Part shown: positions 6,308 to 57,221 of the stretch, one piece after another
Position numbering within the stretch: the stretch's first letter is position 1
Layout of the letters: the number at the start of each line of letters is the position of its first letter
Origin: Candidatus Thorarchaeota archaeon
GTDB taxonomy: Archaea; Asgardarchaeota; Thorarchaeia; Thorarchaeales; Thorarchaeaceae
Length of the DNA: 64,000 nucleotides
Assembly (NCBI GenBank): GCA_011364905.1
Contig: RDNZ01000006.1
Span: forward strand, 34,865-98,864
Direction of reading: 5' to 3'
Position numbers and translations under genes: made by a program
Notes under the pieces: generated by a model
What the model was told of the DNA's origin: nothing
The model's input: only the letters and a program-made list of their open reading frames with translations
The model's database searches: none

Positions 6308-6439
6308 TTATGAGGGTTTTTCAGTGAAAATCAAAGGTCCGACATATCGTTAAATATGCACTCTGAGATTGGAAGTTGCTCAAAAGGATGAAATTTGTTC
6401 CCTTAAAGAGAAGAGATCACACAAAGAGTACATCGCGAT

Positions 6440-7180
6440 GTGAGTCTGTTGCCAGAAAAGAGACAATCAACAATCAAGTTTATTGATCGTCATATGCGTA
6501 AGATTGACATTAACCTAGGCGGACTCGATATTTCTTTTCCATTGAATGCAATCCCAGATATTCTCTATGAAGCATTGGTGAACACTCTTGAGGGAGCCAG
6601 AGATACAGAAGAAAAGGTTCGTAGGTTGTACGAATCCACTCTTATGAAACCCACAATCTCCACGCAGAATGCAATGGGGATTTTCCCAATAAACGCAGCC
6701 AAAAAGATTGTTCGACTGACGCTAACAGATGAGGCACTCGAGGAAAAAATTCTAGAACTTGAGGGAGCTGAGCTATCATTCCAAGGCAGACCTTTCTCTG
6801 AAACTGTAGATGAACGCATTGAGCTCTATCAAGATGTTATGTTAGACGACAAGAAAATAGACAGATACCGTTTTGGTTGTGCCGAGATGTACGGAGACGT
6901 GACCTACCAAAATATACTTCGCGATCCCAGAGTCAGTCTAAGCTTCTTCTGGGTACAATCCGATGAACCTCAGAACCAGAGCTATCAAATCAATTGCATT
7001 GCAGAAGTAGTGCCTCCTGGAGACCCCTTCTTCAGATATATGCGAATCATGAGGCGTCTTTTTAGCTCCAAGCTTCTTGATCTTCGAGGAACGGAGGATT
7101 ATGTCTGTGCGTACAAGTTCTGGGTGTGTGAAACAAAGGAAAAGTCTCTGACAGAGAAAGCAGGGTATTCCCGACTTTGA
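6440..7180 (+). CDS. Hypothetical protein, possible divergent FMN-binding split-barrel C-terminal region
   Basis: 246-aa ORF with GTG start; NILRDPRVSLSFFWV...YQINCIAEVVPPGDP weakly resembles pyridoxamine-oxidase-like domains. Confidence 0.6.
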   Translation: MSLLPEKRQSTIKFIDRHMRKIDINLGGLDISFPLNAIPDILYEALVNTLEGARDTEEKVRRLYESTLMKPTISTQNAMGIFPINAAKKIVRLTLTDEALEEKILELEGAELSFQGRPFSETVDERIELYQDVMLDDKKIDRYRFGCAEMYGDVTYQNILRDPRVSLSFFWVQSDEPQNQSYQINCIAEVVPPGDPFFRYMRIMRRLFSSKLLDLRGTEDYVCAYKFWVCETKEKSLTEKAGYSRL

Positions 7181-9738: not shown

Positions 9739-10644
9739 CTAGCTCCCCAGATTTCGTCGTACAATTGAGTTAACAGCTGGCTCGGGTTCTATCCCAGGTC
9801 TGAAGCGCAGTGCGCCAACCAACACATATGTTGCTGCTTTCGAGAGAGTGGAATGTGATATCGATGACTCCTTCATCCTTTTCGTCATTTGTGCCGCAAG
9901 CCTTGAGATTGATATCCCTGCCCGAATGCTAGCGGGGATCTCGATGTCGGTGTTGGCCCTAGTAGATGACACTAGACCATAGACCTTCTCGAGCACAGCA
10001 TCACTTAACTTGTACTCAGGACAGTTCATCTTCACGATTTCTATCTCGGTCTCCTTTCTCGGGTACCCGAGACGTATCCACACTCTAACACGGTCTCTCA
10101 GTGCCTCGCTTAGTCTGTGAGCTCCTGACATCTCCTCCGGGTTCATCGTCAAAACAGGATAGAATCCCTCGTTAGCTCGTATCCGACCCAGCCTCTGCAC
10201 GCTGATGGAACGCTCTTCGAACGGGTCCAGTAAGGAGTTTTGCACAAACTCACTGAGACGATTCCCTTCATTGAGACCAAAGACTCCTCCGAAGACCATG
10301 CTTTTGAGCAGTGGTCCAGGTTCGAACGCCTCCAGCGTGAATCCTTTGTTAAGAACTATACTCGGATTGAACGCACCTACCAGATGTGAGGGTCGCACTC
10401 CTTCGTCCCCAGTGATCCAGTAGAGTTCCCTCTTGCTTCTCTCCGCATAGGCTCGCAAAAGAAGCGTTTTTCCGACGCCTGGAGGTCCTATTATGCCAGG
10501 TATCAGATTCGCGTTCTCACAGTCGGTGAGTACCCCAAACGCATCAGCGTATTGCTCTTTGATGACGATCCGGACCTTCTCCGAAGTGGCGGCCTTCAGT
10601 CGTTCATCAAAAGCCTCCTTGAAAAGAGTGTTCTCGTTCTGCAT
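9739..10644 (-). CDS. MoxR/CbbQ-type AAA+ ATPase
   Basis: Walker A GPPGVGKTLLLRA, GGVFGLNEGNRL, PVLTMNPEEMSGAHRLSEALRDR; start placed at MQNENTLFKE (10644) rather than the 10755 ORF limit. Confidence 0.87.
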   Translation of the reverse strand: MQNENTLFKEAFDERLKAATSEKVRIVIKEQYADAFGVLTDCENANLIPGIIGPPGVGKTLLLRAYAERSKRELYWITGDEGVRPSHLVGAFNPSIVLNKGFTLEAFEPGPLLKSMVFGGVFGLNEGNRLSEFVQNSLLDPFEERSISVQRLGRIRANEGFYPVLTMNPEEMSGAHRLSEALRDRVRVWIRLGYPRKETEIEIVKMNCPEYKLSDAVLEKVYGLVSSTRANTDIEIPASIRAGISISRLAAQMTKRMKESSISHSTLSKAATYVLVGALRFRPGIEPEPAVNSIVRRNLGS

Positions 10645-30001: not shown

Positions 30002-30838
30002 TCATGCTTCTACCCAAAAAACCCTATCTTTAATGCTCTCAATTGTACTTGGCCAAAGATTGTATGATAGTCCAACATTTGCCATAAGAGGAACTGTGTC
30101 ATCCACCATAAATACCTCAAGACCTGTACAGTAGTACAATGGTGTGATATCAACCGTCTTCATCTGATTCTCACTTATGTCAAGCCACAGGAGATTCGGA
30201 CACTCACGCAAGGTGTCCAAGTCGATTTGGAGAAACCCTGCAGACCTCAACCAAAGACCTTCTAGAGCTTTGCAGTTCTTCAGTGGAGATATGTCCAATT
30301 GCTCCAGTTGATTGCCCTCAAGAAACAGCTCCTGAAGATTCAAACAACCTGACAGGGGTTCCAAACCAATATCATAAAGCTCATTGTTATCAAGTCTTAG
30401 AAATCGAAGTACTGCACTCTTTCTCAGGGGTGAAAGATCAATCTCGTGGAAGTCATTAGACTGAAGATTCAACTCCTGAAGTTTCAAACAGGACATTAAT
30501 GGAGATAAATCAATACGCTGAAGTTTGTTGATCTCAAGAGACAGCGCATCAAGATTGGCACAACTCTCGATTCCAGTGAGATCGATTGAAGATATCAGAT
30601 TAGAACTTAGATTCAGTCTCTCAAGACTTGGACAATCCCTCAACGGCTCAAGATCTATTTTTCTGATTAGATTGGCTGAAAGATTGATTTCTCTCAGTGT
30701 TTTGCACTGAGTTAATTGTGACAAATCAATTTCAACGATTTTTCGTCCAGAGAGGTCAACCACCTTGACATCATCTTGTGTCTGGAAGTAGAGCTCGACA
30801 CCATTTTCGATTCTGAACGAGATATTGATTTCAACCAT
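30002..30838 (-). CDS. Leucine-rich repeat protein (about nine 24-residue repeats)
   Basis: Repeats IDLSPLxxCxxLxxLxLxxNxLxx. Confidence 0.92.
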   Translation of the reverse strand: MVEINISFRIENGVELYFQTQDDVKVVDLSGRKIVEIDLSQLTQCKTLREINLSANLIRKIDLEPLRDCPSLERLNLSSNLISSIDLTGIESCANLDALSLEINKLQRIDLSPLMSCLKLQELNLQSNDFHEIDLSPLRKSAVLRFLRLDNNELYDIGLEPLSGCLNLQELFLEGNQLEQLDISPLKNCKALEGLWLRSAGFLQIDLDTLRECPNLLWLDISENQMKTVDITPLYYCTGLEVFMVDDTVPLMANVGLSYNLWPSTIESIKDRVFWVEA

Positions 30839-30908
30839 ATAATAGACTCCAGCCTATCTTTCACGTGTGTTTGCTACGTTCTTCTCATAAATCGTTAGGT
30901 GTTATAAT

Positions 30909-31643
30909 TCAAACTCGTGTTGAGTGTTCCGGTACCTCGTGGGACCATTGTATTTCTTCTAACCTTTCATTGATCGGGTCAGGAAAGTAAGGAAGATGTT
31001 TGAGCTTGTGATTGGCGGTCAACTCAACAATGTCATCCACAACAAATGACTCCAAATTATCGAAGTGAAACAGCACCGAAATGTCAAGAGTATGCATCTG
31101 GTTTTCGTTGAGGTGAAGATATCTCATGTCCGTGGAGCGCTCCAAGGGGCTAAGATCAATTTTCCGAAGGCGGTTACCCGAAAGTACCAGATATTGTAGT
31201 TTTGATAGCTGTTTGAGAGGACTAAGGTCCAATTCCGTAAGCTCGTTGTCAGCCATATAGAGCCATCTCAATTCTTTGCACGACTGTAGCGGCGATATAT
31301 CCGCATCAATGAGCTGGTTATCAGAGATCTCAAGTGCTTGAAGCTCGAAGCACCTAGATAATGGTTGCAGATTTATGTGAGTCAGCTCATTAGAAGTAAT
31401 ACTGAGAATCTTCAGATTCCTACAGCCTGCCAAGGGCGAGAGATCAATCTCAGTGAGGAGATTCGAGTCAAGATTGAGTTTCTCCAGTTTTCCACATTGA
31501 TTCAAAGGCTCTAAGCTCACTGATTTTATACTAGTGTCTGAAAGATCAATCTCAGTGAAGTAGTCATCTTTAACGACCTGATACTTCTCTCCGTCTGATG
31601 CAACATACCTAATGGTGAACCGTGTCACCTCGTTCCTCTCCAT
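30909..31643 (-). CDS. Leucine-rich repeat protein (about seven 24-residue repeats), paralog of neighbour
   Basis: Same repeat consensus and same C-terminal cap (LESFVVDDIVELTANHKL vs LEVFMVDDTVPLMANVGL). Confidence 0.92.
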   Translation of the reverse strand: MERNEVTRFTIRYVASDGEKYQVVKDDYFTEIDLSDTSIKSVSLEPLNQCGKLEKLNLDSNLLTEIDLSPLAGCRNLKILSITSNELTHINLQPLSRCFELQALEISDNQLIDADISPLQSCKELRWLYMADNELTELDLSPLKQLSKLQYLVLSGNRLRKIDLSPLERSTDMRYLHLNENQMHTLDISVLFHFDNLESFVVDDIVELTANHKLKHLPYFPDPINERLEEIQWSHEVPEHSTRV

Positions 31644-33122: not shown

Positions 33123-34091
33123 ATGCAGAGCTTAATTGCAATGGCGGCACTGTTGAGAGAGATATCATTTGGAATACTGATAGCTGGATTAGTCTACACG
33201 TTTGGATTGTTCGCGCTAGGAAGACTCTTTGCCGCTATTTCTGACCATGGCTCATTTGACCATGATGTTGATCATGACATAGATCATGATGTTGACCACG
33301 ATATCGATCATGGCGTAGACCATGATATTGGACATGAAGTCGACCACGACTATGACCATGATATCGGACATGAGGTCGATCATGACTATGATCATGATGT
33401 TGGACACGGATACGATGTTGAACACATAGAGGTCGATCATGACCTTGACCATGATGTTGACCACGGAGAGGTTGACCATGACCTTGACCATGATGTTGAC
33501 CACGATATCGATCATGGCGTAGACCACGATGTAGATCATGGTGTAGACCATCACATTGAACATGATCATGACATTGATGTCCATCATGAAGTCCCAGTTG
33601 ACAAATCAGGATACTTTGAAACTGAACGCGGTGCACCAATGGGTGTTACGATAGGAACCTCACTTGTCACCTTTGGTTTTTTGGGCTCTATTCTTTATTA
33701 TGAGGGAATCATGTTCCCACTTGTTGGAAAACTGGCTGTTCATTTCATTAGCGTTGCAGTATTGGTCTATGCAGTGCGAAGTGTTCTCGGAAAAGTATTC
33801 GTTGAAGCTGGTTTCATGATTGAACCCAGACATTTGGTTGGCAAACAAGTAGAAGCAGTTTCGACAATAAATGATGGATTTGGCGAAATTCGAATAGAAA
33901 CTGAAATGGGGCTTCGGCGTTTCCACGCAAGGCCATTTCAGAAAGGCGTTGTGTTTCAAAAAGGAACAGAATTGTATATTGTATCAGCAGATGACAAGTT
34001 CGCCTATGTTGACCCGAGAAAAGATGTCGTCAAATGGCTTCAAAAGCAAAGCCAGAAACCTCGGGAAGAAAAGCTGACCAAGAAAGACTAG
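33123..34091 (+). CDS. NfeD-like membrane protein with His-Asp repeat insertion
   Basis: N-terminal TM, HD repeat, further TMs, C-terminal OB-fold-like HLVGKQVEAVSTINDGFGEIRIETEMG...; followed by SPFH gene. Confidence 0.75.
   Translation: MQSLIAMAALLREISFGILIAGLVYTFGLFALGRLFAAISDHGSFDHDVDHDIDHDVDHDIDHGVDHDIGHEVDHDYDHDIGHEVDHDYDHDVGHGYDVEHIEVDHDLDHDVDHGEVDHDLDHDVDHDIDHGVDHDVDHGVDHHIEHDHDIDVHHEVPVDKSGYFETERGAPMGVTIGTSLVTFGFLGSILYYEGIMFPLVGKLAVHFISVAVLVYAVRSVLGKVFVEAGFMIEPRHLVGKQVEAVSTINDGFGEIRIETEMGLRRFHARPFQKGVVFQKGTELYIVSADDKFAYVDPRKDVVKWLQKQSQKPREEKLTKKD
33243..33590 (+). repeat. Approx. 12-nt tandem repeat encoding DHDV/DHDI/DHGV units
   Basis: Residues 41-156 contain 30 His; from residue 47 to 95 His occurs every 4 residues without exception. 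Confidence 0.95.
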
Positions 34092-34288: not shown

Positions 34289-35611
34289 ATGCAAGCAAGT
34301 ATAATGGACTGGTTCGCAAACAACATTGCGCTCTCCATCGCTTTATTGATTATAATGGTTATACTTCTGTCTTTCATCTACGTTAGAAAGTATGTTAGGA
34401 TATTCGATCCAAACATCTTCTATGTCCATTTGAGACGGGGCAAAGCGATCAAACAGGGTGAAGGAGGCATGGTAATCCGAATTCCCTTCTTCGATCGCAT
34501 CCTGGCAGTGGATAGGACCGTTCAACAGCTGAATATATCAGCTGAATCAGTCCTCTCAAAGGAAAAGCAGAAGATTCGACTAAGTGCTGTTCTTCAATGG
34601 CAGGCAGAGAATGCTATTGCCACCATAAACAATGTGATGTGGAAAGAAATTCCAAGTAGACTAACAGCAATTATTGAGTCAGTTATTCGTACAGCATGCG
34701 CTCAGTTATCAGTCGAAATGATTCTTGAAGAACGGCAGTTGATCATTGAAGCAATCAAGAAGGAACTAATCGACATTGTTTCGGAATGGGGCCTAAAGGT
34801 TGTTACTGTAGAACTGGTCGATGTCACAGTGGTCAACGAATCATTCTTGAGAGATATGTCTAAACCTCGTGAAGCTGAGATGCATCGCCTTGCGCAAATC
34901 GCTCTTATCGAGGCTGATCAGTCAACAGGCACCCGAGATATTGAGAGAAGCAAAGTCCTTCGCGAGCAGGAAATTGCGCGTGACAAGGTCATTGGTGTAC
35001 AGGAACAATCTCAGTTGAGGGACATCCAAGAGGCCGAGAAGCAGCGTGAGCAGAGTGTCCTTGAGATTGCACTTCAGAAAGACCTGATGCAGAAGAAATA
35101 CGAGAAGCAACAAGCTGAGGTTGAAGCCTCAAAAGACCTTGAAGTTGCAAAACTTGCAGCTGAAGCACAAAAACAAAGAAAGATCAAGGAAGAGGTCGAA
35201 GTCCAAGCGCAGAGGATAGTTCAAGAAGCTCAGGCTGAAGCTAACAAAATCAGCATGGTCGCTGAGGCTGAAGCAGGCCAAATCCTGAAAGTCACAAGTG
35301 CGCAAGCTGAAGGTATCAAGAAAACGCTCGAGGCAGCACGAGACTACTCTCCACAAGCCTTTGCCAGAGACTTTCTACAGATACTACCTGAGATCTACAA
35401 GCAGATAGACATTGGCGATGTCACACTGTTTGGTGGTGGAGCAGGTACAGGCGGCGTTGAAGGTGAAGAGGGCGGAGGAGGAGCTCAAGCATTCCAGGTG
35501 TTTGGCAATGTATTGATCCCGATGATGCTCATGGCACGAATGATGGGTTTTGACTTCAAGAGTCTCATGAAAGATGCACTGGGCGAGATGGCCACAAAGG
35601 ACGAGAAATAA
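34289..35611 (+). CDS. SPFH-domain (flotillin/stomatin/prohibitin superfamily) protein
   Basis: N-terminal TM; GGMVIRIPFFDRILAVDRTVQQLNISAESVLSKEKQKIRLSAVLQWQ; long Ala/Glu/Lys coiled coil; Gly-rich C-terminal region. Confidence 0.93.
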   Translation: MQASIMDWFANNIALSIALLIIMVILLSFIYVRKYVRIFDPNIFYVHLRRGKAIKQGEGGMVIRIPFFDRILAVDRTVQQLNISAESVLSKEKQKIRLSAVLQWQAENAIATINNVMWKEIPSRLTAIIESVIRTACAQLSVEMILEERQLIIEAIKKELIDIVSEWGLKVVTVELVDVTVVNESFLRDMSKPREAEMHRLAQIALIEADQSTGTRDIERSKVLREQEIARDKVIGVQEQSQLRDIQEAEKQREQSVLEIALQKDLMQKKYEKQQAEVEASKDLEVAKLAAEAQKQRKIKEEVEVQAQRIVQEAQAEANKISMVAEAEAGQILKVTSAQAEGIKKTLEAARDYSPQAFARDFLQILPEIYKQIDIGDVTLFGGGAGTGGVEGEEGGGGAQAFQVFGNVLIPMMLMARMMGFDFKSLMKDALGEMATKDEK

Positions 35612-36515: not shown

Positions 36516-36878
36516 ATGCCTAGTATTTACATAATTTCCCAGTGGGGTCCCGAAGCGGCTGAGCGATGTTTTGGTCCTTTCGTTACCGGTACCACTGCAC
36601 AAGCTCAGGATGTTGATGCTAACATCTTTTTGATGATGGATGCAGTTATGTTGGTGAAGAAGGGGGTTGCAGGAAAGGTAAAAGCGCCTGGGTTCCCTCC
36701 ACTTCCTGATTTAATCGACGCTTTCCTTGAAGCAGGTGGAAGTATTCAGGTTTGCTCCAATTCAGCAGAATTTAGAGGCATTACTGAGAAAGACTTTTGT
36801 GACCCGCGAATCGAGATTGCTGGCGCTGCCACAATGATCGATGAAACCCTCAAGCACGACAAAACAATGTTCTTCTAG
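36516..36878 (+). CDS. DsrE-family protein
   Basis: ANIFLMMDAVMLVKKGVAGKVKAPGFPPLPDLIDAFLEAGGSIQVCSNSAEFRGI. Confidence 0.8.
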   Translation: MPSIYIISQWGPEAAERCFGPFVTGTTAQAQDVDANIFLMMDAVMLVKKGVAGKVKAPGFPPLPDLIDAFLEAGGSIQVCSNSAEFRGITEKDFCDPRIEIAGAATMIDETLKHDKTMFF

Positions 36879-36889
36879 AACTTCAAATC

Positions 36890-36907
36890 AGAGGGGTTCG
36901 CCCCTCT
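36890..36907 (+). terminator. 7-bp hairpin with TTCG loop plus T-rich tract
   Basis: AGAGGGG-TTCG-CCCCTCT then CACTTCTTATTTTTG, 11 nt after the DsrE-like stop. Confidence 0.6.
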
Positions 36908-36936
36908 CACTTCTTATTTTTGTGACTAATTTCATT

Positions 36937-38709
36937 CTAGGTCATGTAGGGATAACACTGTGTCATGAGTAGGTTCAAGACGGAACTACGGACGGAACTC
37001 TCAGAAATGAAACCGGTCAGTTCGTTTTCGCATATCTTGATGTAAGGAAGCATGGGAAGTTCTTCAACTGGAATGTCGACATCTGGATCATCAACATTGA
37101 TTGTTTCAACCATGCTTAGAGGTACCCCCAATGAGTCTAGAACTGCAGTCAGTATCTCCATTGCAGGTTCGCAGAAGACACAATGATTCGATTTGTAGAA
37201 AGTGATACAGGTTTGTCTTCCGCAGTGTAGTTCCGGAGTTTCAATCCAGAGCGGCAGCATCAGAATGAATCTTGCACCTTGGGAGTGATTTCCTTTCACC
37301 CGGTCCTCAACCCGAATCTTACCGCCTATGTTCCTAACAATCCTATCGACAAGTGTTAGTCCAAGCCCTCTCCCGACTATCTGCTCATCCGGACTTCCTG
37401 TCCTTCGAAAGATGAACTCCTTTGCATTGTCGGGGACCCCCGGTCCATGGTCTATGAACTCAATTCGGACCATCTTCACTTCTTTGACTATCTCTGCAAG
37501 AACCTCCATGTGTACGACATCTTTCTCATCAAACGTCATGGCATTGTGAAGTAGATTGAAACACACCTGTTCGAGATACTGGTGACCAGCTACCTCAAAC
37601 AGTCCTTTCTCGACATTTGTAGTCAACTCAAGTGTCTTCCACGGAAAGTCTCTCTCAACTGAATCCTTGGCAGTTTCAAGATAATCGTAAAAGTCAACCT
37701 TTGTTCTTGTTGGCGGTTCATTTGCCAACCTAAAGAGAGACCTTAGATTCGCAATCATTCTCGCAGCTCTTCTGACATTCCAGCTTGATTCATGCAGCAA
37801 TGGTCGATATTGCTCAGGAATGTCTTGGGAACTCTCCATTAGCCCTGTCGAGAACAGAAGGCTCTGGTTGACATTATTCAGATCGTGAGTCATGACTTCT
37901 AGGTATAAGTTGGCACGTTCACGCTCAACTTGCTCCCTCATTTCAGCATTCTTTCTTCTGTCAATATCAAGTGCCATTAACGCGATTGTAGATGATTGGT
38001 CGGGAACCTCCAAAAGATTCGCCGTTACACTTACCCACGTTGTTCTTCCGTCAGCAGTTTTCAACTGCAGTTCGAAGTCTTCAACACTTTTGCCATTAGC
38101 CGCTTCTGAAATCATTTGTCCAACGATTTCTTTACCGTTACCATTAGGAAGGAACGATGAGAAATTCCTTCGAAGTAAATCCTCTTCTTTGTACCCTAGC
38201 AACCTGGCTGCGGCTTTATTGACTTGCAGGACATTGCCCATTAAACTCAAGGAGAAGTAAGCTATTGGAGATGAGTCATATAATGCTCTATATTTACTCT
38301 CTGAAACATCAATCGCGGCCTCAAGCTCAACTTGATGGGATACATTGCGGACTATAGCCATAACAGCCGGCTTTCGAGAGAGAGCGAAGTCAGAGGTACT
38401 AATTTCGACATGGATAATGCTTCCATCCTTTTTCAAAAATCGGGCTCTGAAAGAGGGACGCTGAGTTTGACCCCAATTAAACGCATCCTGAACCTCACTG
38501 AATTGATGGGCTGTGGTTGGTTCCAGAAGATCAGTAACTTGCTTTCCCTCAAGACTAGCAAAATCATACCCCATCATTTCTAGAAACGCAGGATTTGCCA
38601 TGACAATCCTATCATCCTGTAATATGATGATTCCATCATTTGCCAACATCATCATGCCAAAGTATTCATCTTCGACATTGGTGGTGTTCTTGTTGGATTG
38701 ATCCTGCAA
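36937..38709 (-). CDS. PAS-PAS histidine kinase with C-terminal thioredoxin/glutaredoxin-like domain
   Basis: Two PAS domains, H-box VMTHDLNNVNQ, N-box NLLHNAM, DHGPGVPD, GRGLGL; C-terminal ITFYKSNHCVFCEPAMEIL...LPMLPYIKI. Confidence 0.88.
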   Translation of the reverse strand: MQDQSNKNTTNVEDEYFGMMMLANDGIIILQDDRIVMANPAFLEMMGYDFASLEGKQVTDLLEPTTAHQFSEVQDAFNWGQTQRPSFRARFLKKDGSIIHVEISTSDFALSRKPAVMAIVRNVSHQVELEAAIDVSESKYRALYDSSPIAYFSLSLMGNVLQVNKAAARLLGYKEEDLLRRNFSSFLPNGNGKEIVGQMISEAANGKSVEDFELQLKTADGRTTWVSVTANLLEVPDQSSTIALMALDIDRRKNAEMREQVERERANLYLEVMTHDLNNVNQSLLFSTGLMESSQDIPEQYRPLLHESSWNVRRAARMIANLRSLFRLANEPPTRTKVDFYDYLETAKDSVERDFPWKTLELTTNVEKGLFEVAGHQYLEQVCFNLLHNAMTFDEKDVVHMEVLAEIVKEVKMVRIEFIDHGPGVPDNAKEFIFRRTGSPDEQIVGRGLGLTLVDRIVRNIGGKIRVEDRVKGNHSQGARFILMLPLWIETPELHCGRQTCITFYKSNHCVFCEPAMEILTAVLDSLGVPLSMVETINVDDPDVDIPVEELPMLPYIKICENELTGFISESSVRSSVLNLLMTQCYPYMT

Positions 38710-38855
38710 ATCGTTTTCCGCCTAGATGCATCCAAAGTCGCCGCATCTGCTCTTGCGCTATTCATGTGTCAAGTATAATCTACATATAGATTGCTTGTGT
38801 AAATCAAGAGCAACTCCGTATTCCGCAAGGGAATTGCTTTTAAGGCCATTTTCTA

Positions 38856-38887
38856 TCATTTCAACACTTGTATAATCGTTGAAATGT
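38856..38887 (+). promoter_or_regulatory. Inverted repeat, candidate ArsR/SmtB-family operator
   Basis: ACATTTCAAC-(12 nt)-GTTGAAATGT, perfect 10-bp arms, overlapping the first ATG of the ArsR-family ORF. Confidence 0.65.
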
Positions 38888-39225
38888 TGTGTGGGAAAAT
38901 GACAGCCACAAAAAAGGCATCTGAAAATCAGATTGAGTTCAAAGGCGATGAATTGAACAATGTGATAGCAATTTTCAGAGCACTCTCTGATCATTCACGT
39001 GTTCGAATCATATCGGCTCTCTCGAATAATGAGAATCTTTGCGTATCTGACATCGCCGAATTACTTGAGATGCCGATCAGTAGGGTGAGTCATCATCTCA
39101 GCACATTGAGGATGCTGGGATTTGTGAAGTCGCATCAAGATGGAAAGCAGGTCTTTTACACTATTGACGACGATTGCATTACTGACATCATGAAGAGGGC
39201 AAGAGACCATGTCGCAGGAAACTGA
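38884..39225 (+). CDS. ArsR/SmtB-family metal-responsive regulator
   Basis: IFRALSDHSRVRIISALSNNENLCVSDIAELLEMPISRVSHHLSTLRMLGFVKSHQDGKQVFYTI; alternative ATG at 38899. Confidence 0.92.
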   Translation: MLCGKMTATKKASENQIEFKGDELNNVIAIFRALSDHSRVRIISALSNNENLCVSDIAELLEMPISRVSHHLSTLRMLGFVKSHQDGKQVFYTIDDDCITDIMKRARDHVAGN

Positions 39226-41122
39226 AACTGCGTGTACAACCTGCGCCGCTACTGCAGGAACTGAAACCCACAAGTCAAGACAATACAAGTACAGAATGGC
39301 AGTCTTGTCAGCATCCATGCTAGTTCTTGGTATCGCTCTTGGATTCTTGAGCGCAAATATCATCCTCATTTACTGTGTATTTCTTGCCTCTATGCTATCA
39401 GCTGGACAGTTCATTCTTCCAAGAGGGGCTCGAGGATTAATGAAACTTCGACTTGACATGCACTTTCTAATGTCAACAGCGTCCATAGGAGCATTCATCA
39501 TTGGCGCTCCGGCTGAAGGCGCAGCAGTCATGTTTCTCTTCTTCATATCGATGCTACTTGAAGAAAGAGCAGAAGATCAGGTGAGGCACGAGCTAGAACA
39601 ACTCATACAATTAGAACCTCCATCAGCCACTATCAAGATGAAAGATTCTGAAGCTTGCATACCGACATCAGAGGTCATGCGGGGAGATGTTTTGATTGTG
39701 CGACCTGGAGGAAAAATAGGCCTGGATGGAGTTGTCGTATATGGCGAAACCTCAGTAAATCAAGCTCCGATAACAGGAGAGTCGATTCCTGTCACAAAGA
39801 TAATTGGGGACAAGGTGTATGCAGGGACAATAAACCAAGAGGGATACATCGAGGTCGAGGTAACCTCGAAATCAAATGAAACCGTTCTTTCAAAAATAGT
39901 AGAATTGGTAGCAGATGCAAAGAACAAGAAGGCACCGACGGAGAAGCTAATAGATAGATTCTCCCAAAAATATACTCCTGTTATGGTCACTCTAACAATC
40001 TTGCTTGGATTGGTAACATGGATCCTTGGTGCATCACCTGTCGACGCCACTTATCGTGCATTGACACTACTGGTCATCAGTTGCCCTTGCGCTTTTGTTG
40101 TATCAATCCCAGTTAGTATTGTGTCATCCATAGCAGGCTCAGCAAGAGATGGAGTCTTGGTAAAAGGCGGAATCTACATAGAGCAAGTAAGCAAGACGAA
40201 GACTGTTGCATTCGATAAAACGGGCACTCTCACGGATGGCGAGTTGTCAGTGAAAGAGGTCTGTCTACATAACAATTTCAGCAGAGAGGAAGTTCTCATA
40301 ACAGCCGCCACTTTAGAACAGATGTCTGAGCACCCGATAGCACGAGCATTGGTCGATGTAACTAAGAACGAAGACATGGAGCTAAGAGAGACTTTCGGAT
40401 TCTCTGCAATTCCAGGACTCGGCATTGAGGGTAAAATCGGAGATGCAACCTATCTCGTGGGAAACCGGAGACTCTTGATGGAACAAAGTATCATGCTGGA
40501 TGAACCTTCTAAGCATAGTTGTGGAGTAGGTACTCTAGTCTATGTTGCACAAGGCAACATGCACCTCGGGACTATTGTTTTGGCAGACTCACTTCGGGCT
40601 GGAGCAGTTGAAGCTGTGCGTGAACTAAAGAGCATGGGCATACGTACCATTATGCTCACCGGGGATAGTGAAACAGTAGCGAAAGACATAGCGCAAGAGG
40701 TTGGTGTTGATGAATACATGGCAGAGCTTCTTCCAGAAGAGAAGGTGGCTGCAATAGAGGAGATTTCAACAAACGGCTCATCGATAATGGTTGGCGATGG
40801 CATTAATGATGCACCGGCTCTCGCTACCGCAGATGTGGGAATTGCTATGGGCGCAGTTTCTTCGGATGCCGCACTTGAAACATCAGACATCGCCTTGATG
40901 CAGCAGGATCTGAGGAATGTGCCTGGTATTATCAAGAAGGCAAAAAAGACAATGAGAATAGTACGCCAAAATATTACTCTCTCAATATCTGTAAAGCTCT
41001 TCATCGGTATTTTTGCTGCCTTCGGTCTCGTGAGTCTGTGGATGGCCATTGGAATAGGGGATATGGGACTAACTTTTGCAGTAATTGCCAATGCTCTAAG
41101 ATTGGTAAGGAAAAACACCTAG
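39209..41122 (+). CDS. P1B-type heavy-metal ATPase (Zn/Cd/Pb-type)
   Basis: SCPCAFVVSIPVS, FDKTGTLTDGE, APITGESIPV, MVGDGINDAPAL; overlaps the ArsR gene by 17 nt. Confidence 0.93.
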   Translation: MSQETETACTTCAATAGTETHKSRQYKYRMAVLSASMLVLGIALGFLSANIILIYCVFLASMLSAGQFILPRGARGLMKLRLDMHFLMSTASIGAFIIGAPAEGAAVMFLFFISMLLEERAEDQVRHELEQLIQLEPPSATIKMKDSEACIPTSEVMRGDVLIVRPGGKIGLDGVVVYGETSVNQAPITGESIPVTKIIGDKVYAGTINQEGYIEVEVTSKSNETVLSKIVELVADAKNKKAPTEKLIDRFSQKYTPVMVTLTILLGLVTWILGASPVDATYRALTLLVISCPCAFVVSIPVSIVSSIAGSARDGVLVKGGIYIEQVSKTKTVAFDKTGTLTDGELSVKEVCLHNNFSREEVLITAATLEQMSEHPIARALVDVTKNEDMELRETFGFSAIPGLGIEGKIGDATYLVGNRRLLMEQSIMLDEPSKHSCGVGTLVYVAQGNMHLGTIVLADSLRAGAVEAVRELKSMGIRTIMLTGDSETVAKDIAQEVGVDEYMAELLPEEKVAAIEEISTNGSSIMVGDGINDAPALATADVGIAMGAVSSDAALETSDIALMQQDLRNVPGIIKKAKKTMRIVRQNITLSISVKLFIGIFAAFGLVSLWMAIGIGDMGLTFAVIANALRLVRKNT

Positions 41123-44563: not shown

Positions 44564-45172
44564 GTGACACGTGTTCTACTGGTTGATGACGATATTGAGC
44601 TCCTTGATATAGCGAGGATACTATTTGACCAAAAAGACCCTGATTTAGAACTGGTTGTTTCCTCATCGGTCAAGGATGCACTACAGAAATTAGAAAGAGA
44701 AAATTTTGACATTGTTATTTCTGACTACTTGATGCCAGATGCCTCAGGGTTGGACTTGCTAGAAGCGCTTCGTGAAGGCGGAGACGACATTGGATTCGTA
44801 ATGTGGACCGGACACTCGAACGAAGAAATCGCCATCAAATCGTTAAACCTTGGTGCGGATTACTACATTCTCAAAGGCCAGGATTACCGAAACCAGTTCT
44901 CCATTATTCAGGAGAAAATCAAGAGTGTCTTAAGCAGGAAATCACATGCGGAACTTCCTGTCATAAAACAGGAAAAAGCGAGCAAGTTCATACACAAATT
45001 ATCGCATGACATTATCGGGGTCGCTCAAAATATTATGGGGTATGCAACGCTTCTGGAAGAAGAGAGCAATCCGAAGTATATTGAGGGAATTAGCAGGCTT
45101 TTAGCGAAGCTCGATGACAGAGTTAAAACTGCTGTCACACAAGTCGACGACGGTTTGCTAAATGAAAAATAG
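44564..45172 (+). CDS. Response-regulator receiver domain fused to HisKA-like segment lacking an ATPase domain
   Basis: TRVLLVDDDIELLD...VISDYLMPDASG...YILKG; then KFIHKLSHDIIGVAQNIMGYATLLEEE. Start at GTG 44564 (or 44552), not the 44252 ORF limit. Confidence 0.85.
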   Translation: MTRVLLVDDDIELLDIARILFDQKDPDLELVVSSSVKDALQKLERENFDIVISDYLMPDASGLDLLEALREGGDDIGFVMWTGHSNEEIAIKSLNLGADYYILKGQDYRNQFSIIQEKIKSVLSRKSHAELPVIKQEKASKFIHKLSHDIIGVAQNIMGYATLLEEESNPKYIEGISRLLAKLDDRVKTAVTQVDDGLLNEK

Positions 45173-46482: not shown

Positions 46483-48768
46483 ATGAAAGACCTAGAAGCT
46501 GTTACGAATAGTACGATAAGTCAGGAAGAGGAAGCAAGTCGCTATAGGGCACTCGTTGACTCGATGAATGATGGATTTGGTATTATAAACCGTGAGGGTG
46601 TATTCACCTATGTCAACTCACGATTCACTAAAATGCTTGGTTACTCAGAAGAGGAAATGGTAGGAAAAAAAATACTTGACTTTGTAGATGATAAGAACAA
46701 AAAAATAATACGCGATAACATCAGGCACCGACAAGAGGGTGAGTCAACCCAGTATGAGGTTGAGTGGAAAAAGAGCTCAGGCGATCCGCTGCCAGCAATC
46801 GTATCAGGAGCACCGATGTTTGATGAGGATGGCAATCATCGAGGTTCATTTGCTGTAATCACTGATATTAGCGAGCTTAGAGCATCTCAGATGGCTCTTG
46901 AAGAAAACGCAGAGATGATGCGTCAAATTTTCGATGAATCGCAAATCGGAATAGAACTATTCGACGCAAATGGAATTCTTGTTGCAGCGAATCGAGCAGC
47001 TCTAAAACAGGGCGGAATCAAAGAGCTCAAGGACCTTTTAGGCTTCAGCCTTTTTGATGATCCTAATGTACCAAACGAAATCAAAGCCAAATTAATCAGA
47101 GGCGAACCAGTCAAGTATGAGACAACTTTTGATTTCGAGAAAGTTAAAGCTGAAGGTCTCTATGAAACAACCAGGTCCGGGCAGATTATTCTAGATGCAT
47201 GGATAACACCGTTAGGGATAGAGAATGGCGGAGAAATCAAGGGATACTTGAGTCAACTTCTTGAGATAACAGAAGAGAAACAAACGGAAGCAGCACTAGA
47301 AGATTCCGAGAAACGATATCAGCTTGTAGCTGAAAATGTGACTGATGTAATCTTCACATCCGATCTTGAACTAAATGTCACCTATGTCAGTCCTTCAGCT
47401 GAGCATCTTTTGGGTTATATGGCCAAAGAACTTGAAGGAGTGTCGTTGATTGAGCTTATGGCCCCCGCTTCAGTCTGGACAGCCATTGAGGCTGTAAAAG
47501 AAGCACTTGAACTTGAGAAGGTATCAGATCAAACAAAGACAAGAGGTGATGCGCCACCTCTCGAAATCCAGCTCAAAAGAAAGGATGGATCAATGGTTTG
47601 GACTGAGGTGGCAAGGACTTTCACAAGAGATGAGAAAGGCAAACCCACTGGAGTTTTGGGAGTGGCTAGGAATATCGAGGAAAGAAGAGAAGCCCGAAAA
47701 GCTCTGGTTGAATCAGAAGCCAAATATCGAACCCTCATAGACCATTCACTTCAAGGATTCCTAATTATTCAGACAGCACCATTACAGATTAGGTTCTCAA
47801 ATCCAGCTTTTGCAACTTATTTGGAAAGGTCCGTTGACGAACTTCTTACTCTCACTCCAAAAGAGATTTTGGACCTAATTCATCCAGATGATCGGGACTT
47901 GATCCTAAATCGCCTGCAGGACCTAATGAAAGGAGCACCTCCTAACAGGATACCTACAATAATCCGGGTGTTTCAAAAAGATGGCGATATGCAATGGCTC
48001 GAAGTCTTCGGTAGACGAATAGAGTTCGAAGAAACCCCAGCCATTCAAGTTGTGGCTATGAACATCACAGACCGGTACGACGCAGAAAAACACATTGAAA
48101 CGCAGAAAGAGCGAGCGTTGCATCTAATCGATCTTATGGCGCACGACTTTCGGAATCAACTCCAGATAATCTTGGGCAGCACGATGGTAATGGAATTGAA
48201 ACTGCAGGATCCTGAAGCCCGCCGTCTTTTGGGGCAAATTGTCTCATCTGTTGAAAGATGTCAAAGTATGATATCCAAAGTAAAAGTAACTGAACCACTA
48301 ATGTCCGTGCCATTGCGAATCAGAAAGCTCGACACTGCTATTGATTCAGTCATTGAATCGCAGAAATCCCAACATAGGGATGTCAGTTTTGAGATTTCAC
48401 TGGATGCTGACAATTCACTGGTGGAAGCAGACCAATTCCTTGAGCAGTTGCTGGAGAACATTATAGAGAACGCAATTGAACACAATCATAGTGATGAAAG
48501 GATCGTCTGGATATCGCTCAAGGAATCTGGAGATGGGTATGAGATTTCAATCGGGGACAACGGGCAGGGAATTTCAAGCTCTCTGAAGACTGCAATCTTT
48601 GATGTTTCAAGGCGCTATGGTGGCGTTGGTCTCAATCAATCAAAACAGATCTGCGATAAATATAGCGGAAGAATAGATGTGAGAGACCGCATTGCGGGAC
48701 AACCAACAAAGGGTGCTGAGTTCATAGTGTGGTTACCCAAAGCACGAGAACAAAAGAACTCATCATAA
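46483..48768 (+). CDS. Multi-PAS sensor histidine kinase
   Basis: Successive PAS/PAC domains; H-box DLMAHDFRNQLQIILG; N-box ENIIENAIEHN; GDNGQGISS; GGVGLNQSKQI. Confidence 0.92.
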   Translation: MKDLEAVTNSTISQEEEASRYRALVDSMNDGFGIINREGVFTYVNSRFTKMLGYSEEEMVGKKILDFVDDKNKKIIRDNIRHRQEGESTQYEVEWKKSSGDPLPAIVSGAPMFDEDGNHRGSFAVITDISELRASQMALEENAEMMRQIFDESQIGIELFDANGILVAANRAALKQGGIKELKDLLGFSLFDDPNVPNEIKAKLIRGEPVKYETTFDFEKVKAEGLYETTRSGQIILDAWITPLGIENGGEIKGYLSQLLEITEEKQTEAALEDSEKRYQLVAENVTDVIFTSDLELNVTYVSPSAEHLLGYMAKELEGVSLIELMAPASVWTAIEAVKEALELEKVSDQTKTRGDAPPLEIQLKRKDGSMVWTEVARTFTRDEKGKPTGVLGVARNIEERREARKALVESEAKYRTLIDHSLQGFLIIQTAPLQIRFSNPAFATYLERSVDELLTLTPKEILDLIHPDDRDLILNRLQDLMKGAPPNRIPTIIRVFQKDGDMQWLEVFGRRIEFEETPAIQVVAMNITDRYDAEKHIETQKERALHLIDLMAHDFRNQLQIILGSTMVMELKLQDPEARRLLGQIVSSVERCQSMISKVKVTEPLMSVPLRIRKLDTAIDSVIESQKSQHRDVSFEISLDADNSLVEADQFLEQLLENIIENAIEHNHSDERIVWISLKESGDGYEISIGDNGQGISSSLKTAIFDVSRRYGGVGLNQSKQICDKYSGRIDVRDRIAGQPTKGAEFIVWLPKAREQKNSS

Positions 48769-54942: not shown

Positions 54943-55485
54943 TCACTTAGTATATCGTGGTTCCAGACCCTCAAACCATGGTGCGACCTTTGTATCATCC
55001 ACTCTATCAGAAGAGGGGAGATATGGTTTGATATCGATAATCGGCGAACCATCTTTCGCATCCATGTGATCGATCTTAAGACGCTTGCTTTCAGTTTCTA
55101 CCGATTCAAGCATGACAATAGTGTGTCCTATAGGATTTGGTCTCAATGGTGTTCTACAAGAAAAGGCGCCTGAGGGTTCTTTCCCTTTTCCTCTTGGTGG
55201 ATTTGAAAGAAGAGTACTACGATCCTCTTTTGTATCACGTTCATGTATCCACCAGAGAACAATCAGATGAGAGAACAGTTCTACATGCACAGTCGCATCC
55301 CAGAATTCGGGATCAATAACAAGATAGATACCATCGTCGTTCTTCTCTACACGACCAATAGGATGGATATAGTAGTCCAATAATGTCACCTCTACAAGAT
55401 AGGTGGGGAATTCATACTGATTAATACGACTATAGATTGCTACTATTCTCCGGCCACGTGGCAAAACCATAGAGTCCAAGTTCAC
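54943..55485 (-). CDS. TrmO/TsaA-family tRNA methyltransferase-like protein
   Basis: IHPIGRVEKND, FSHLIVLWWIHERD, GAFSCRTPLRPNPIGHTIVML, IDIKPYLPSSD. Confidence 0.88.
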   Translation of the reverse strand: MNLDSMVLPRGRRIVAIYSRINQYEFPTYLVEVTLLDYYIHPIGRVEKNDDGIYLVIDPEFWDATVHVELFSHLIVLWWIHERDTKEDRSTLLSNPPRGKGKEPSGAFSCRTPLRPNPIGHTIVMLESVETESKRLKIDHMDAKDGSPIIDIKPYLPSSDRVDDTKVAPWFEGLEPRYTK

Positions 55486-57221
55486 CCTGACATCAATAGC
55501 ATTGACGTGATTTCAGCTCTCAGGTCATCTTCAGAAACATATCCAGCAATCTGTTTGCTGCCCATGTGAATAGTTGGAAGAGCAGGTAAATCTCCTTCAG
55601 CAACACCTGATGCAGGGTCATCAACATTGATGAGATTGATAGTTGATGGACTAATATTCATCTCTGCTAAGACTGCAGTTAGAGACTCCAAGACCGGACT
55701 ACAAAATACACAATGTTCAGATTTGTAAAACACAATCGGAGGAATCTTGAGCTCTTCCTTCCATACTGGCAATAGCAAAACGAACCTATTGCCTTTTGTC
55801 GGATCAGATGGGTTTCTATCTTCAACCCATACTCTCCCGCCCAGATTTTCGATATACCTGTCAACAACAATTAATCCAAGACCCTTCCCTGCTAATTGTG
55901 CCTCAGGATCTCCATCTCGCCTGAAAATCTGGTCCTTGAGATCATCAGGAATTCCAGGACTATGGTCTAGAAATTCGATTCGGACCATGTCGCCATCTTC
56001 AGTGCTAGCAGCCGTAATCTCAAGTTTTACAGTAGTATTCGGATCTTCACTCGCGCAGTAGTGTATAATATTGAAGAAGATATACCACATGAAAGCATGA
56101 CCCACAACATCAAACGACTGCTTGGGAATGTTCGATTCGATATCAAGAGTTTTCCACGAGAAGTCTCGTGTAGCCTCTCTAACAGCTTTATTGAAATGAG
56201 GCTGAAGGCGTGTTTCTACCTTTTCGGGAGGCGATTGGCCAAGTGAAATCAGCACGCCCATGTTGGCAATCATTCTGCCTGCACTTCGAACACTCCAAGC
56301 TGTTTCACCTAAGAGACCTCGGAGACGGTCCGGAAGGTCAAGCGAGATAGTCAGGTCCTCCAGAGCAAACAAAACATTCTGGTTAGTCATGTTCAAGTCG
56401 CTACTCATGACCTCCATGTACAAGTTTGCCCGTTGACTCTCGTGTCTGAGTCTAGCCTCCACAGCGCGCCTGGAGGTCACATCAAATGCAGTGAGTCCGA
56501 TTTCGCTTAACTTCTCGGTTCCTGATGAAAGAGGACTTGAGGAAATATTGGTCCAGATGATCTTTCCGTCCCCTCTCTTCATCTGAATCTCTAGACCTCT
56601 GACAGCTCTCCCTCGTAGGGCTTCTTTAACAATGTCTGCACCTGGGTCATACCGAGGTTCTGGATCCGGTAGAAATTCAGAGAGTGATTTGCCAATGAGC
56701 TGATCAGCTTCACAGCCAAGCAACTCCTCAGCCGCAGCATTCACTTGCTCAATGTTGCCATTCCGGTTCAGAGTGAAGTATGCAACAGGAGACATATCAT
56801 ACAAAGTAGCGAAGCGGTTCTCCAGCTCGGAAACTGCTGCTTCAAGCTCCATCTGAGTTGTGACATTTCGAATAGTAGCAATGACAGCAGGCGAGCCTTT
56901 CAGTTTGATCTCTATTGGAGTAATTTCAACATGAAGAATCTCATTATTGCTTGATACCAGACGAGTGTTGAATCGAGTCGAGTCTTGACCGGTAGTAAGT
57001 GCCTCAATCATATCTTGGTCGCGCCTTCGAGACATTGGCTCGACGAGTTCCACGAAAGGCATGTCAAGAAGGTCTTCTTTCTTGAATCCAAGCATATCAG
57101 TGAACGCACTATTTGAGAGAATAATGTCCTCATCCTGAATGACCACAAATCCATCTCGGACAACTTCCATGACCTTGTGTAACCAAGATGTTTCGTCATT
57201 CGTATCAGGCACTTGTGACAC
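55482..57221 (-). CDS. PAS-PAS histidine-kinase-like protein (probable pseudokinase) with C-terminal thioredoxin/glutaredoxin-like domain
   Basis: Same architecture as 36937-38709; VMSSDLNMTNQ in place of VMTHDLNNVNQ; NIIHYCA in place of NLLHNAM; C-terminal IVFYKSEHCVFCSPVLESL...LPALPTIHM. Confidence 0.88.
   Translation of the reverse strand: MSQVPDTNDETSWLHKVMEVVRDGFVVIQDEDIILSNSAFTDMLGFKKEDLLDMPFVELVEPMSRRRDQDMIEALTTGQDSTRFNTRLVSSNNEILHVEITPIEIKLKGSPAVIATIRNVTTQMELEAAVSELENRFATLYDMSPVAYFTLNRNGNIEQVNAAAEELLGCEADQLIGKSLSEFLPDPEPRYDPGADIVKEALRGRAVRGLEIQMKRGDGKIIWTNISSSPLSSGTEKLSEIGLTAFDVTSRRAVEARLRHESQRANLYMEVMSSDLNMTNQNVLFALEDLTISLDLPDRLRGLLGETAWSVRSAGRMIANMGVLISLGQSPPEKVETRLQPHFNKAVREATRDFSWKTLDIESNIPKQSFDVVGHAFMWYIFFNIIHYCASEDPNTTVKLEITAASTEDGDMVRIEFLDHSPGIPDDLKDQIFRRDGDPEAQLAGKGLGLIVVDRYIENLGGRVWVEDRNPSDPTKGNRFVLLLPVWKEELKIPPIVFYKSEHCVFCSPVLESLTAVLAEMNISPSTINLINVDDPASGVAEGDLPALPTIHMGSKQIAGYVSEDDLRAEITSMLLMSG

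Follow-up and report, generated by a model that had tools for sequence, protein, structure and literature searches.

Kinase and phosphatase output of HisKA histidine kinases depends on an acceptor histidine and on the asparagine at H+4, the phosphatase-type position. The window analysed here, a stretch of 64,000 nucleotides from a Candidatus Thorarchaeota genome, codes for two paralogous proteins that join a PAS-bearing histidine kinase to a thioredoxin-fold domain. One of them, B, is intact. The other, A, has neither of the two residues, and an earlier note, made from the DNA letters alone, took it for a pseudokinase. This raises the question of whether the loss is genuine and conserved, and what such a protein might do. 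Our comparison supports the pseudokinase part of the earlier reading: the histidine is absent from all 31 orthologs, spread over ten genera, no conserved DHp histidine takes its place, and the gene is under strong purifying selection. Loss of the acceptor across orthologs under purifying selection is one mark of a pseudo-histidine-kinase, and A is almost certainly a genuine, conserved member of this class.

Two kinase-thioredoxin fusions in one family of Thorarchaeota

A and B (Table 1) share 39% identity over their full length, and in both proteins the two PAS domains and the HATPase_c domain score above the Pfam cut-off. The middle segment of A was modelled with AlphaFold2 (pLDDT 86) as the DHp-CA core of a histidine kinase, with fold matches to HK853, ZraS and DivL; hence, A has the DHp hairpin and HATPase_c fold of an orthodox HisKA kinase. 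Identity between the paralogs is highest in DHp helix 1 (47%), followed by the thioredoxin (45%) and CA (43%) domains, and lowest in PAS1 (25%), a pattern suggesting a common core with divergent input.

The C-terminal 90 residues or so have no Pfam match at the cut-off. Modelled from the family alignment, they reach a pLDDT of 84.5, and Foldseek matches them best to thioredoxins (E 1.4e-4, TMq up to 0.74). The CxxC of A, within the motif YKSEHCVFC, opens the first helix of this model (the cysteines are its residues 17 and 20, with a helix at 20-33 and a strand at 9-13), and Pro549 of LPALPTI, the predicted cis-proline, occupies position 62, directly before strand 63-66. Both features are conserved in 30 of 30 A proteins, in line with the preservation of the CxxC that had been noted from the window. 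Outside the family, the similarity of Asgard proteins to B ends at or just past the CA domain, and the four long-frame thioredoxin matches that we inspected contain no kinase; nor did we find a kinase-thioredoxin fusion like A or B in the open-access literature. The window's own genome also carries two stand-alone, cysteine-rich thioredoxin-like proteins of about 115 residues (L182 on C23 near 9889-10167 and L184 on C28 near 6436-6714). Proteins of this type occur across the family, have a CGxCxC...CxxC...C...CFC pattern and are related to the kinase C-terminal domain; they are the likely source of the fused thioredoxin domain.

Table 1. Features of the two paralogs, in window coordinates
Feature	Coordinates	Strand	Basis
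A: PAS-PAS-DHp-CA-Trx pseudo-histidine-kinase, 579 aa	55482..57221	-	ORF with GTG start and no internal stop
A, two PAS domains (about residues 13-250)	56472..57185	-	Pfam PAS, 2 stretches, E 7.5e-26
A, DHp helical hairpin (about residues 251-330)	56232..56471	-	AlphaFold2 model of the core segment, helices 2-42 and 47-78; fold matches HK853 and DivL
A, Ser274 codon AGC at the phospho-acceptor His site	56400..56402	-	His in 0/31 A-clade and 35/35 B-clade proteins
A, Met278 codon ATG at the H+4 Asn site	56388..56390	-	Asn in 0/31 A and 34/35 B
A, CA (HATPase_c) domain	55752..56231	-	Pfam HATPase_c, 49.8 bits, over cut-off
A, Tyr388 codon TAC at the N-box Asn site (HK853 N380 position)	56058..56060	-	Asn in 0/16 of the window's genus and 14/15 other A
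A, C-terminal thioredoxin-fold domain, CxxC (Cys504, Cys507), cis-Pro motif LPALPTI	55485..55745	-	AlphaFold2 pLDDT 84.5; Foldseek
B: PAS-PAS-DHp-CA-Trx histidine kinase, intact, 590 aa, six Trx-region cysteines	36937..38709	-	

We collected 31 A-clade proteins (ten genera) and 35 B-clade proteins from 47 genomes of one family-level group of Thorarchaeota comprising 13 genera; a search of the whole order returned the same 47. The relatives of the locus that have a name are Candidatus Thorarchaeota assemblies; their depositors called two of them simply "archaeon" and a third "Lokiarchaeota". The A clade is monophyletic (support 100/99), and its sister group is formed by intact kinases of genus g13. 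As read from this tree, a kinase-thioredoxin fusion was duplicated within the family-level group, giving rise to A. A third kinase-thioredoxin copy in G011 (L026, on C187) is nearly identical to the g13 kinases and probably lies on a foreign contig in that bin, whose stated contamination is 7%.

The A frames are open in 31 genomes of ten genera, with 29 complete and two cut by contig ends. By the Nei-Gojobori method, dN/dS is about 0.03-0.11 for the whole protein and 0.03-0.13 for its separate domains, much as in B. The values are rough because synonymous sites approach saturation in the more distant sets; a g13 set of low divergence (dS about 0.5) gives 0.11. Such low ratios indicate that A is not a pseudogene. 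As judged from these substitution patterns, strong purifying selection has held the fold of A, its DHp helix 1, the CxxC and the cis-proline.

Stepwise loss of the catalytic residues

The H-box of A reads VMSSDLNMTNQ where that of B reads VMTHDLNNVNQ, which bears out the serine codon singled out in the earlier note. None of the orthologs retains the histidine, and the position is occupied by Ser in 20 proteins, Gln in seven, Asn in two, and Arg and Lys in one each. What is fixed across the lineage is thus the loss of histidine, and not serine itself. A sequencing error or a recent mutation can be ruled out as the cause, because AGC is at least two base changes away from a histidine codon and the 30 relatives from other genomes share the loss. 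Among the 15 histidine kinases that we read in this genome, A alone has no H-box histidine; B, the PAS4 kinase at 46483-48768 and 12 others have it. The loss maps to a single change on the tree. The second asparagine of HDLNN, at H+4, is likewise missing throughout the A clade, and the acidic residue at H+1 has been kept (Asp in 28, Glu in three). On the phylogeny, the acceptor histidine and the H+4 asparagine were both lost once, on the stem of the A clade.

Another histidine could in principle have taken over as acceptor, as the earlier note had cautioned. However, no DHp histidine is conserved across the 31 A proteins. His342 is invariant in A, but it belongs to the beginning of the CA domain, and seven B proteins have it too; we rejected it as a replacement.

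The N-box has a different history. The note had contrasted NIIHYCA with NLLHNAM of the other copy, and this holds: A reads FNIIHYCA and B reads FNLLHNAM, with Tyr388 replacing the asparagine. A profile alignment of A, B, their relatives and the Thermotoga maritima HK853 structures places residue 388 at the second asparagine of the HK853 motif NLLNN, which we take to be the Mg2+-ligand position. This asparagine has been lost from 17 of the 31 A proteins, that is, all 16 of the window's genus (Tyr in 14, Phe in one, His in one) and one other, through two changes on the tree that are younger than the loss of the histidine; 14 proteins keep it. Within the window's genus, the absence of asparagine is therefore fixed and tyrosine largely so; outside it, neither holds. 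Because the N-box loss is later and confined to some lineages, it and the histidine loss are events of different age. More broadly, seven ATP-site residues that we checked are all canonical in ten of 31 A proteins, versus 34 of 35 B proteins. The G-box-like GKGLGL is retained in the window protein, as had been read, and the G-box glycines are eroding in several members of the clade.

A further loss, absent from the earlier note, concerns the thioredoxin region. The six cysteines of B in this region (C496, C501, C510, C513, C560 and C585) are invariant in the 34 proteins with a complete C-terminus, the 35th being cut off after four of them. Seven basal A proteins, six from genus g13 and one from g8, keep all six. 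The remaining 23 A proteins that reach the region have the CxxC only and none of the four accessory cysteines, with a gap at the last cysteine position in one of them. The four were lost together on one A branch, and each of the three accessory positions tested requires one change on the tree. Their joint loss suggests that they form one unit, through disulfides or a metal site, in the active kinase. In the fold model, C501 would lie before the first strand and C560 would end the antiparallel strand after the cis-proline, so that these cysteines would sit opposite the CxxC pole. Taken along the tree, A lost the acceptor histidine and the H+4 asparagine first, then the four accessory cysteines, and later, in some lineages, the N-box asparagine and some of the glycines.

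Gene neighbourhood of the two paralogs

B was found in 24 of the 31 genomes that carry A. All seven in which we could not detect B are drafts, and in four of them the contig ends ahead of the syntenic place of B. Conversely, B occurs in ten genomes that lack A, several of which are 93-99% complete. A and B lie on the same strand and bound a conserved gene block, present in the window's genus and in g4 and g11 genomes, with about 17-24 kb from start to start. This gene order may reflect slow rearrangement rather than function. A adjoins TrmO, and we considered a common operon. In the window the two genes overlap, but this does not hold generally, since they are more than 1 kb apart in G013 and G010.

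Between the A and B copies of the window's genus, a conserved gene on the plus strand (44570-45172) codes for a receiver domain followed by a short hairpin of helices; its LSHD motif is invariant, and it has no ATPase domain. In its G013 counterpart (L081), the receiver part seems lost and the histidine-bearing part remains. Nine receiver domains were found in the genome. We considered the 44570-45172 protein as a phospho-partner of A and set it aside: it accompanies the PAS4 kinase in the blocks of the window's genus, and in two other genera the A/B blocks lack both, so that the protein goes with the PAS4 kinase.

Within 36516-41122, a DsrE-like gene and a divergent heavy-metal P1B ATPase gene lie on either side of B. 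Both neighbours are kept in several genera, which suggests metal or sulfur stress as the context of B. Elsewhere in the window, a membrane protein (33123-34091, plus strand) has an extended array of D-H-D-V-D-H type repeats between its membrane segments and possibly binds metal; its gene adjoins a flotillin-like (Band_7) gene (34289-35611) near the heavy-metal ATPase. Two adjacent leucine-rich-repeat proteins with IDLSPL-type repeats are encoded at 30002-31643 on the minus strand.

Possible roles of the pseudokinase

With neither the acceptor histidine nor the H+4 asparagine, A should have no HisKA output: neither autophosphorylation nor the dephosphorylation of a response regulator would be open to it through the HisKA mechanism. 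A regulatory role fits its conserved core, divergent PAS1 and invariant CxxC. The reading that we favour as a whole, at roughly even confidence, is that A is a non-catalytic regulatory pseudokinase with a redox thioredoxin domain, which modulates a partner, most likely B. The DHp-CA core would take its conformation from PAS signals and from the redox state of the CxxC, and would act on the catalytic partner by DHp heterodimerisation or by competition. The redox-sensing part, which the earlier note had also proposed, is suggested by the thioredoxin fold. B is a plausible natural candidate: it is a paralog of A with the same architecture and a conserved DHp helix 1, it co-occurs with A, and the two genes are linked in several genera. 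We hold this identification somewhat below even confidence. High identity in DHp helix 1 would also be expected on structural grounds, which weakens the argument for pairing, and the thioredoxin and CA domains follow close behind.

The main rival dispenses with B: like DivL of Caulobacter crescentus, A could work as a homodimer, sensing through its DHp-CA core whether a response regulator is phosphorylated and signalling this to another kinase. DivL combines PAS domains with a histidine kinase core, its acceptor histidine is replaced throughout its orthologs, and it needs no kinase activity (PMC4211667). The core of A fits DivL (4q20) with a TMq of 0.69, the highest among the 50 matches listed, and retains the acidic H+1 residue. 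However, this fit is only marginally above that to ordinary kinases, and we found no response regulator to partner it. DivL itself is alphaproteobacterial, has no thioredoxin domain and carries Tyr or Ala at the histidine site, as against Ser, Gln, Asn, Arg or Lys in A; it is known to be linked to CckA and to bind DivK~P, whereas A has only a candidate partner. We consider this reading possible, if doubtful.

Alternatively, A could be chiefly a PAS-controlled thiol-disulfide oxidoreductase, with its thioredoxin domain acting as an enzyme on unrelated substrates and the kinase core reduced to a dimerisation scaffold. Indeed, the CxxC and the LP(T/A)I cis-proline motif vary little or not at all even as the ATP site decays, and the same genomes encode stand-alone relatives of the domain. 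Yet DHp and CA evolve as slowly as the thioredoxin domain, beyond the constraint on a mere scaffold, which makes this role unlikely. It is less probable still that A is an ATP-binding enzyme whose CA domain phosphorylates the histidine of B or of another DHp domain in trans. The CA fold is retained and some members keep an intact set of the ATP-site residues checked, but the loss of the Mg2+-ligand asparagine throughout the window's genus, together with the eroding glycines, rules this out as the general function and makes it least likely for the window protein. That A is a decaying, functionless duplicate, as its missing catalytic residues might imply, is refuted by the low dN/dS, the open frames in 31 genomes and the invariant CxxC.

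RetS keeps its own kinase features and has no thioredoxin domain, in contrast to A. Still, RetS and GacS form a hetero-oligomer in which one sensor kinase controls another (PMC9491836), as proposed for A and B. In Corynebacterium glutamicum, a dead variant of ChrS affects signalling via the intact paralog HrrS, and the native paralogs heterodimerise (PMC9491836); that variant is a laboratory-evolved truncation that keeps its histidine, whereas A represents a natural, old clade without it. Incomplete kinases are common in archaea, and the archaeal "HisKA, no HATPase" proteins have lost the opposite half, keeping the histidine and lacking the ATPase (PMC5847659). An Asgard sensor kinase without the catalytic histidine, KKK40347.1, is mentioned in one sentence of PMC10343646, which treats it as a single protein and reports neither an ortholog analysis nor a thioredoxin domain.

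RegB is a redox kinase with cysteine-based control. ArcB, too, is under cysteine-based redox control (PMC3364231), as A may be; unlike A, both are active and have single or paired cysteines in a PAS domain or linker instead of a whole C-terminal thioredoxin fold. One specific form of our preferred regulatory reading, which we put forward as speculative and rather improbable, is a thiol-gated A-B heterodimer, in which the two-cysteine thioredoxin of A would swap disulfides with the six-cysteine thioredoxin of B. The accessory cysteines of B would then be one disulfide or metal unit, and the dead subunit would write its redox state onto the live one.

Conserved pseudo-histidine-kinases have rarely been documented, and the Asgard precedent that we found is the one-sentence mention above. 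In A, the stages of decay can be read on one tree, from the acceptor histidine through the accessory cysteines to the ATP site last, with an intact twin still present in most genomes that carry A. That the four cysteines were lost all together or not at all yields a concrete claim, that they may work as one unit in the active kinase. If the thiol-gated heterodimer were true, it would amount to redox two-component control of a kind so far undescribed.
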